A DNA stretch of 64,000 bases, from assembly GCF_003129605.1 (NCBI RefSeq), contig NZ_QBDX01000003.1, positions 62,001 through 126,000 on the forward strand, in the 5' to 3' direction. Below, piece by piece: positions 1 to 2,690 of the stretch. Origin of the DNA: Hyphobacterium indicum (GTDB lineage: Bacteria > Pseudomonadota > Alphaproteobacteria > Caulobacterales > Maricaulaceae). Below the pieces are notes generated by a model, which had not been told where the DNA came from, made no database searches, and saw only the letters and a program-made list of their open reading frames with translations. The stretch's first letter is position 1. Each line of letters begins with the position of its first letter. The translations under genes were made by a program, and so were the position numbers.

Positions 1-473
1 GCCGCCGAGACAAAAGCCGCATCGGCGCGCAGTCCGGTTATGTCCAGCAATGCGGCGTAATTCACAGAGCCGCCGATATAGGTGGCCGTGAACACGCCGG
101 CGATCCCCGCCTCGTCCGCGCCGAAATCCAGCAGCGAGACAGCCGCAATCGCGCCCAGCACCGTGCCCAGGGCTGCCACGCCGAATGCCAGCGTCATGCG
201 GCCGGTCTCGAAAAAGATTTTCTTCAGGTCCGCCTTCATCAGGAAGAGCGGGATCAGCACCGGCACGAAATAGGTGAAGACGAAGGAATAGGCCGGGGCA
301 CTTTGTGGAATGATCCGCAGATTGGCGGCAAATATCGCCAGGAAAATTGCTACCACCGCGCCAGTCAGAATAGCCCCGATGCGGGATTTTTCGGCCAGAA
401 AACCGATAGCGGCGATCACGAACAGCCCCGCCATGACGGCGAAATGATTGTCGGCGGGAATCAGCGTTTCCAT
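1..473 (-). CDS. DUF819 family membrane protein (3' end missing)
   Basis: The reverse strand reads from an ATG at 473 without a stop to the window edge, so the C-terminal part is missing. The visible 157 residues begin METLIPADNHFAVMAGLF and form several hydrophobic helices separated by short polar turns. The segment around residues 70-80 (FFETGRMTLAFG) and the later GVFTATYIGGSVNYAAL stretch are typical of DUF819 integral membrane proteins, which are about 380-420 residues long. The biochemical role of DUF819 is not established; related proteins resemble transporters. The gene runs in the same direction as the downstream avidin-RidA-M20 cluster, but a gap of about 60 bp separates them. No ribosome-binding site was used to prove the start, though no other in-frame ATG lies upstream. 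Confidence 0.75.
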   Translation of the reverse strand, partial: METLIPADNHFAVMAGLFVIAAIGFLAEKSRIGAILTGAVVAIFLAIFAANLRIIPQSAPAYSFVFTYFVPVLIPLFLMKADLKKIFFETGRMTLAFGVAALGTVLGAIAAVSLLDFGADEAGIAGVFTATYIGGSVNYAALLDITGLRADAAFVSA

Positions 474-532: not shown

Positions 533-967
533 TTAATGCTCACAATGGCGTCGGTCGCGGCGCACAAACCGGCTCTCCCCGGCATACCGGCCCGGCCCGC
601 TGTCCCCGCTCTCGGTGTCCGGCGCCACCCAGCGCACCAGCGACCATTCGGTGGCGATGACATCGCCCTCGATCACGCCGGTCCAGCTGGTGATGGTGTG
701 GCAGGTTTCCGCCTCCGCGCGCCAGACCACATTGAAGGTGATCAATGGTTCGAAGACCCGGCCTTCAACGTCATATTCGATGCCCTGGCAGGCATAGCCC
801 GCCGCCCCGTTGACATAACGCCCGGTCAGGCGGCCCCCATCATCCATCGTATCGAGAAAAAGCACCGATCCGCTCTGGTTTTCCCAGACCGACGGCACGG
901 CCAGATCATCCGCGAACGCTGTGGCAGGCCAGACCGCCCACAGAATCAAAAGCAGGAAACGCATCAT
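533..967 (-). CDS. secreted avidin-family (rhizavidin-like) protein
   Basis: The 144-residue product starts with a cleavable signal peptide (about residues 1-19, ending TAFA). The rest aligns by eye with short dimeric avidins such as rhizavidin: WENQSGS at 28-34, GRYVN at 49-53, Cys60 and Cys89 at the positions of the rhizavidin disulfide, then SWTG at 94-97 and EWSL at 107-110. Biotin-contact equivalents appear as Asn30, Ser34, Tyr51, Asn53, Trp82, Trp95 and Trp108. The streptavidin Asp128 equivalent seems to be lost (GESRF where rhizavidin has GQDTF), so affinity may be altered. The start codon overlaps the RidA stop in an ATGA, indicating translational coupling in a three-gene operon with M20 amidohydrolase and RidA. 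Biotin binding is inferred from family membership, not shown. Confidence 0.8.
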   Translation of the reverse strand: MMRFLLLILWAVWPATAFADDLAVPSVWENQSGSVLFLDTMDDGGRLTGRYVNGAAGYACQGIEYDVEGRVFEPLITFNVVWRAEAETCHTITSWTGVIEGDVIATEWSLVRWVAPDTESGDSGPGRYAGESRFVRRDRRHCEH

Positions 968-1362
968 GCGTCTTCCGCCAGATAGGCGTCGGCCTCGATT
1001 TCGACCAGAAAGTCCGGCCCTGCCAGCGCGGAAATGCCATAGAGCGCCGAGGCAGGCGGGAAATCTCCGAACACAGCCGAATGCGCCCGCGCGAAGGCGG
1101 CCTGCGCATCCGCGCTCATATCGGTGACGAAAACGCGGGTGCGGCGGACATTCTTCATCGACGCGCCGAGCTTCACCAGCGCCGCCTCGATGATTTCAAG
1201 ACAGCGCCGCGTCTGGGCTTCCATGTCGCCGGGGGCATAGGGCCGGCCGTCCTCGCCGACCGCCACCGTGCCGGAGACCCAGATATGCGGGCCCTCCTTC
1301 ACAGCACGGCGATAGCCGACGCGGTCCTCCCAGACCGCGCCGGACGAGACACGTTCCACCAT
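964..1362 (-). CDS. RidA/YjgF/UK114 family protein
   Basis: The 132-residue product has the usual length and layout of RidA-family proteins: an N-terminal GYRRAVKEGPHIWVSGT strand region, a central helix with RRCLEIIEAALVKLGASMKNV, and the C-terminal VEIEADAYL. Canonical RidA deaminates reactive enamine/imine intermediates made by PLP enzymes and uses an arginine near the C-terminus. That arginine is not obvious here, so this may be one of the non-deaminating Rid subfamilies. The protein is probably a cytosolic trimer. The ATG at 1362 lies two bases after the stop of the upstream M20 gene, and its own stop overlaps the avidin start, so the three genes appear co-transcribed. Its function next to a secreted amidohydrolase is unknown. 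Confidence 0.85.
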   Translation of the reverse strand: MVERVSSGAVWEDRVGYRRAVKEGPHIWVSGTVAVGEDGRPYAPGDMEAQTRRCLEIIEAALVKLGASMKNVRRTRVFVTDMSADAQAAFARAHSAVFGDFPPASALYGISALAGPDFLVEIEADAYLAEDA

Positions 1363-1364
1363 GT

Positions 1365-2690
1365 CTATTGCGCGCCGGTCGGCGCCAGGAAGTCCAGCGC
1401 AATCGCGGTCAGGCCTTCGGTCGCCATGGTAATCGAGCTTTCCGCATCCGGGGCAAACAGGGCGGAGTGGTTGCCCGGTGCGGACAGCCCCTGTGACTGA
1501 TACTCGATCAGCGTGTCCTGCGGAGTGCCGCCGACCCAGAACATGAAAATCGGGATATCCTCCTCGGTGCGGCCATAGCGCGAGAAGTCCTCACCACCCA
1601 TGACGGGATCGAGCTGGCGCACGGCGAGGCTGCCAAAGCGGTCCTGCAGCACCGCGACGCCCGATTCCGTCAGGTCCGGGTCATTATAGGTGGCCGGCGT
1701 ATAGGGCTCTTCCACCTCGACAATCGGCAGACGGTCTTCCGGAATACCGGCGGAGATCGCCTGCCCGCGGGCAATGCGCTCAATGCCCGACAGCAACAAT
1801 TCGCGATTGGCATCGGAATAGGAGCGCACCGTGATCTGCAGATGCACCTCGTCCGGGATGATATTGTGCTTGGTGCCGCCATTGATCGCGCCCACCGTTA
1901 CCACGCCGGATTCCAGCGGGTTCATCTCGCGGCTGACCAGCGTCTGCAAGGCAGTGATGATCTGGGCCGACAACAGGACCGGGTCACGGCCGACATGCGG
2001 GGTGGAGCCATGCGCGCCAATGCCGCGCACGGTGATATCCACCGAGTCGACATTCGCCATGGCAAAGCCCGGCACATAGCCGATCATGCCCGCCGGAATG
2101 GCGCCGAATGTGTGAAAGGACACCACGGCATCGGGCAGCGGGAAGCGCTCATAGAGCCCGTCATCCAGCATCATCTGCGCGCCCAGCCCCAGCTCCTCGG
2201 CCGGCTGCCCGATCAGCACCAGCGTGCCGGACCAGTCCTCGCGGCGTTCCACCATCTGGCGCGCCGCGCCGACCAGCGCCGTCATGTGGGTATCGTGTGC
2301 ACAGGCATGCATGACATGGCTTTCCAGACCGCGCCGGTCCGTGCCCGTCACCGTCGAGGCATAGTCCAGCCCGGTATTTTCCTCGATCGGCAGCCCGTCC
2401 ATATCCGCCCGCAGCATCAATGTCGGCCCCTCGCCATTCTCCATCACCGCGACAATACCGGTGCCACCGACATTCTCCGTCACCTCGAAGCCGAGCGCGC
2501 GAATCTCCTCGGCCAGGCGCGCCGCAGTCTCGACCTCCATCAGCGACAATTCCGGATTGGCGTGAAAATGCTCGTACAGGCTTTCCAGATAGCCGGAATA
2601 ATCCGACTGGATGGATGACCGCAGATCGTCCTGCGCGAACGCACCGGCGGACAGCGCAATGGCAGCAGCAGAAGCAAGTAACAGACGCAT
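1365..2690 (-). CDS. secreted M20 family metallo-amidohydrolase/peptidase
   Basis: The ATG at 2690 is preceded by AAAGGGGACT, a good ribosome-binding site, and is followed by a signal peptide (MRLLLASAAAIALSAGAFA). The open frame extends further upstream, but that extension lacks family similarity. The 441-residue protein carries M20D hallmarks: LRADMDGLPIEE, HACAHDTHMTALVGAA with metal-ligand Cys and His, GQPAEE with the catalytic/metal Glu, and the late MGGEDFSRYG motif. Relatives (hippurate hydrolase, IAA-amino-acid hydrolase, carboxypeptidase Ss1) cleave N-acyl amino acids or small peptides using one or two divalent metals. A signal peptide implies a periplasmic or secreted enzyme, unlike most cytosolic homologues. 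It is the first gene of an operon with RidA and an avidin-like protein. The substrate is not predictable. Confidence 0.88.
   Translation of the reverse strand: MRLLLASAAAIALSAGAFAQDDLRSSIQSDYSGYLESLYEHFHANPELSLMEVETAARLAEEIRALGFEVTENVGGTGIVAVMENGEGPTLMLRADMDGLPIEENTGLDYASTVTGTDRRGLESHVMHACAHDTHMTALVGAARQMVERREDWSGTLVLIGQPAEELGLGAQMMLDDGLYERFPLPDAVVSFHTFGAIPAGMIGYVPGFAMANVDSVDITVRGIGAHGSTPHVGRDPVLLSAQIITALQTLVSREMNPLESGVVTVGAINGGTKHNIIPDEVHLQITVRSYSDANRELLLSGIERIARGQAISAGIPEDRLPIVEVEEPYTPATYNDPDLTESGVAVLQDRFGSLAVRQLDPVMGGEDFSRYGRTEEDIPIFMFWVGGTPQDTLIEYQSQGLSAPGNHSALFAPDAESSITMATEGLTAIALDFLAPTGAQ

Follow-up and report, generated by a model that had tools for sequence, protein, structure and literature searches.

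Streptavidins sequester biotin together with an antibiotic of the biotin pathway (PMC13336041), and in the dimeric avidins a cysteine pair closes the L3,4 loop (PMC5398887). By our arithmetic, the cost of the streptavidin D128A change is about 1000-fold, given the 4.4 kcal/mol reported for it (PMC4888747), and in chicken avidin the Asp128 position is occupied by Asn (PMC5398887). Position 112 of streptavidin lies near the ligand carboxylate, with Ser112 5.3 A off in Sav1 and Tyr145 bonding the carboxylate in Sav2 (PMC13336041), while the F43A mutant of shwanavidin is labelled as low-affinity in the PDB. Here, we analyzed the only avidin-family gene in the 2.8 Mb, 100% complete genome of Hyphobacterium indicum, using a 64,000-nucleotide stretch of DNA (hereafter, the window) and related genomes; a literature search for Hyphobacterium together with avidin found no paper.

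The avidin gene encodes a 144-aa product that begins with MMRFLLLILWAVWPATAFA/DD and has a putative signal peptide at approximately residues 1-19, recognized by eye, as a preliminary description of this DNA had also proposed. The assignment to the rhizavidin type made there stood as well. Specifically, the product matched the Pfam Avidin family (PF01382) at 40.8 bits, for a cut-off of 24, and the closest PDB sequences were wilavidin (7.9e-23), shwanavidin (1e-20), and rhizavidin (1.5e-16). The AlphaFold model, built from six natural sequences (pLDDT 84.8, pTM 0.78), formed an eight-stranded beta barrel and so passed the fold check set in the preliminary description, and Foldseek searches against the PDB placed wilavidin first (E 3.7e-10), followed by bradavidin 2, shwanavidin, and rhizavidin, the top matches being avidins exclusively. 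The rarity that had been ascribed to bacterial avidins was not seen near this host, as avidin-family genes were present in 51 of 137 Maricaulaceae genomes, most of these genes belonging to a different avidin clade. At the end of the gene (window 533-550), the protein has the tail RRHCEH, while the copy in genome G028 stops after VRRD, and this change of stop codon lends the window avidin a longer tail and a third cysteine in its mature form.

Table. Coordinates of the avidin gene and its operon neighbors in the window.
Feature	Position	Strand	Evidence or remark
Avidin, dimeric (rhizavidin/wilavidin) type	533..967	(-)	Pfam, PDB search, AlphaFold, Foldseek, alignment
Rid-family protein (PF01042)	964..1362	(-)	Ser replaces catalytic Arg
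M20 amidohydrolase, putative signal peptide (by eye)	1365..2690	(-)	Closest solved relative 6slf
DUF819 putative transporter, start; extends past the window (L037:6305-7474)	1..473	(-)	

The residues that had been predicted to line the pocket were all in place in the alignment. Asn23, Ser27, Tyr43, and Trp79 of streptavidin corresponded to Asn30, Ser34, Tyr51, and Trp82 of the window avidin, and Thr90, Trp92, Trp108, and Leu110 to Thr93, Trp95, Trp108, and Leu110. Cys60 and Cys89, which constitute the L3,4-L5,6 pair, were invariant in all five Hyphobacterium avidins, the loop that in streptavidin supplies Trp120 to the adjoining subunit had no Trp, as in dimeric avidins, and Tyr58 occupied the position of shwanavidin Phe43. 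The suspected replacement of the Asp128 equivalent (GESRF) was borne out by a clear alignment with wilavidin GEDIF, in which the position is Ser132. Each of the five intact Hyphobacterium copies had this Ser, even where identity fell to 48-50%, whereas the Asp was present in eight of eight other short avidins from at least six other families, making it common to all short relatives found, albeit not part of the formal definition of dimeric avidins. Because this position is Ser, the Hyphobacterium avidin was filed as a variant of the dimeric avidins, one that by alignment has lost the Asp of all its short relatives, and not as a plain member. Additionally, Arg112 was located at the position of streptavidin Ser112, at the mouth of the pocket, and was fixed in the Hyphobacterium avidins. 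These formed one group in our phylogenetic reconstruction (support 98/95), the tree not placing the clade's source, and were separated by eight diagnostic positions, two of which, Ser132 and Arg112, are at the ligand. Two other short avidins (L092 and L097) retained the Asp and had a shortened L5,6 loop and Phe in place of Tyr43 and Trp79.

Given the cost of D128A in streptavidin and the retention of the other pocket residues, biotin binding is expected to be weaker, not abolished; we infer weaker but real biotin-type binding, and the Ser132 change could be offset by water or neighboring residues. The gene is under purifying selection that is looser than that on its neighbors, with pairwise dN/dS of 0.21-0.50 for the avidin, 0.07-0.30 for Rid, and 0.02-0.26 for M20.

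M20, Rid, and avidin are on the same strand, with 2 bp between M20 and Rid and a 4-bp overlap (ATGA) between Rid and avidin, and DUF819 begins downstream on that strand, 59 bp past the avidin stop. The avidin is likely co-transcribed with M20 and Rid; a scan for promoters and terminators at the operon yielded nothing useful. The M20-Rid-avidin order was found in five genomes (the window's, G024, G027, G028, and G029), with the ATGA overlap kept in three, while G027 had 510 bp and a small reverse ORF between Rid and avidin, and G029 an amino-acid permease. In G025, the M20, Rid, and permease genes were kept, and avidin and DUF819 had become one fused scar (L056:3580-3830), in which the 5′ part of the avidin, with a stop and an altered motif (MR*IAALLLLPANSVADEFISPSVWENPSG...), is joined to the DUF819 tail. 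G030 had M20 alone and no avidin. G026 had frameshifts in M20, avidin, DUF819, and metG; since M20, DUF819, and metG were broken too, the frameshifts are most plausibly assembly errors, and the reading of the G026 avidin as a pseudogene was rejected. Several Hyphobacterium species have kept the avidin at this single location although identity drops to 50%, which leaves room for some functional tie.

This synteny, about which the preliminary description had asked, held across the five genomes but not at the Rid loci read outside Hyphobacterium. The Rid protein had matches in 58 of 136 Maricaulaceae genomes, and at the 24 Rid loci read outside Hyphobacterium, M20 was directly upstream in 16, DUF819 downstream in 14, and both in 12, with avidin at none of these Maricaulaceae loci. 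M20-Rid-DUF819 is a Maricaulaceae cassette older than the presence of the avidin, and the avidin was rejected as an obligate partner of M20 and Rid. The spacing between Rid and DUF819 varied, the two being close (up to 136 bp) at nine of the 24 loci and 620-730 bp apart at five, a gap that can contain other genes where it was read. Both L120 and L122 carried a glutathione S-transferase there, and L106 and L115 carried proteins of no assigned family (unassigned products of 201 and 175 aa are among the slot genes). Because the gap elsewhere holds a glutathione S-transferase or other genes, the avidin occupies a variable slot, an argument drawn from 24 Rid loci of a single family, some of them on short contigs. 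It is mainly for this reason, that the avidin fills a variable slot of an older operon, that we doubt a dedicated three-gene system. Among related short avidins outside Hyphobacterium, none had M20 or Rid nearby, and a Porticoccaceae locus (L063) considered as a second M20-linked avidin was rejected, M20 and Rid being absent from its surroundings. The genes in the insertion slot at L106, L110, L115, L120, and L122 differed between genera.

With respect to the neighboring enzymes, the M20 protein matched TIGR01891 at 276 bits versus 154, contained the metal-site motifs HAC-HD-H and PAEE, and had N-alpha-acyl-glutamine aminoacylase as its closest solved structure (6slf, E 4e-84). Imine hydrolysis by RidA requires an Arg, which is Ser in approximately 10% of RidA proteins (PMC4433059). 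The residue at catalytic Arg105 was Ser in the window protein and Ser, Thr, Ala, or Cys in its relatives, so imine hydrolysis is not anticipated for the window protein by the criterion of that study (PMC4433059). Of the co-translated RidA initially proposed, the Rid family and the likely co-transcription remained, and the catalytic Arg was lacking. DUF819 proteins are putative transporters of the CPA/AT superfamily (PMC8396727). Across the L103-L127 cassettes, Rid was without the catalytic Arg throughout, and the pathway could be one of N-acyl amino acid use. The host genome contained bioB, and BioY was absent from the Hyphobacterium genomes; biotin scavenging, which the preliminary description had put forward, is therefore not obviously needed, and biotin auxotrophy as the reason for the avidin was not supported. 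No antimetabolite clusters were seen near the avidin in the stretch read.

The explanation towards which we lean is that the avidin is an acquired, dimeric-type protein in an expressed slot that binds biotin or a biotin-like carboxylate more weakly and reversibly than its relatives do. Specifically, an ancestor of most Hyphobacterium would have acquired the gene horizontally, with insertion into the Rid/DUF819 gap and co-expression with the older M20-Rid-DUF819 operon, making it probably an acquired passenger of that slot. The product would be exported and fold as a barrel with the L3,4-L5,6 disulphide and the aromatic biotin cage retained, and the exchange of the ureido-binding Asp for Ser, along with the Arg gained at the pocket's carboxylate end, would leave a weaker, reversible grip, periplasmic or extracellular, on biotin or a carboxylic acid resembling it. 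Our best guess for such reversible binding is buffering or withholding, rather than enzymatic coupling with M20 or Rid.

We consider it unlikely that the avidin, with Asp128 changed to Ser and Tyr112 to Arg at the two ends of its pocket, instead binds a carboxylic acid of the M20 operon and not biotin, the Ser132/Arg112 pocket holding a periplasmic M20 substrate or product, for instance an N-acyl amino acid, as part of the operon's pathway. Two fixed pocket changes, one per ligand end, found only in the M20-operon clade, and an M20 relative that acts on N-acyl amino acids speak for such a switch. However, the pocket changes and the operon residence arose on one branch, so that their association counts only once, the remaining biotin contacts are all retained, and G025 lost its avidin while keeping M20 and Rid. 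Of similarly low probability is an ordinary avidin that withholds biotin or serves in defence, the role suggested for bacterial avidins elsewhere, and whose affinity is close to normal in spite of Ser132. The predicted fold and remaining pocket are intact, the Asn of chicken avidin (PMC5398887) and the sequestration by streptavidins noted above are consistent with it, and what argues against it is that every other short avidin examined has the Asp, the removal of which is costly in streptavidin (PMC4888747).

Less probable again is a functional unit of M20, Rid, and avidin along the lines of the preliminary description, in which M20 would cleave biotin amides, biocytin for example, and the avidin would capture the freed biotin for scavenging or withholding. 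Three tightly packed genes on one strand, putative signal peptides on both M20 and avidin, an order kept in five genomes, and an M20 from an amide-cleaving family are all compatible with this proposal, which nevertheless conflicts with the older, avidin-free M20-Rid block in sister genera, the presence of bioB and absence of BioY, the N-acyl-glutamine aminoacylase as closest solved M20, and a Rid lacking the catalytic Arg. Finally, a decaying passenger gene without selected function, to which the G025 scar, the absence from G030, the shifted stop codon relative to G028, and the faster evolution than neighboring genes might point, is very improbable given that dN/dS stays at 0.21-0.33 across long distances and that the cysteines and the aromatic cage are strictly conserved.

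Were the avidin to bind a carboxylic acid of the M20 operon, it would be a natural avidin with a non-biotin ligand and a metabolic role. A natural clade without the ureido-binding Asp, in which the cage is otherwise under selection, offers a comparison for the evolution of affinity and ligand choice, and the slot result cautions that a tight operon is no guide to function when the operon pre-dates the gene.

Among described systems, Streptomyces streptavidin shares the avidin fold and secretion (export of the Hyphobacterium avidin being predicted) but is tetrameric, has Trp120 and Asp128, and is found among biotin-antimetabolite clusters (PMC13336041). The other Maricaulaceae avidins (L002-L031) belong to the same family, yet form a separate clade without the cysteine pair and are located elsewhere in the genome; in those read, Asp128 also seemed to be missing (for example, AGASEF and AGPATF). 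Rhizavidin (PDB 3ew1; L095) is likewise a short avidin in which cysteines join L3,4 and L5,6, and it shares the pocket set; it has approximately 34% identity to the Hyphobacterium protein, keeps the Asp (GQDTF), and is without M20 or Rid neighbors. Wilavidin and shwanavidin (PDB 7ouq and 3szh; profile E 1e-40 and 1.6e-35) resemble the Hyphobacterium avidin in sequence, fold, cysteine pair, the aromatic residue at Tyr58/Phe43, and the missing Trp120. Unlike the Hyphobacterium avidins, in which the corresponding residues are Ser and Arg, these two retain the Asp (GEDIF and GQDVF, respectively) and have Ile or Val at position 112.
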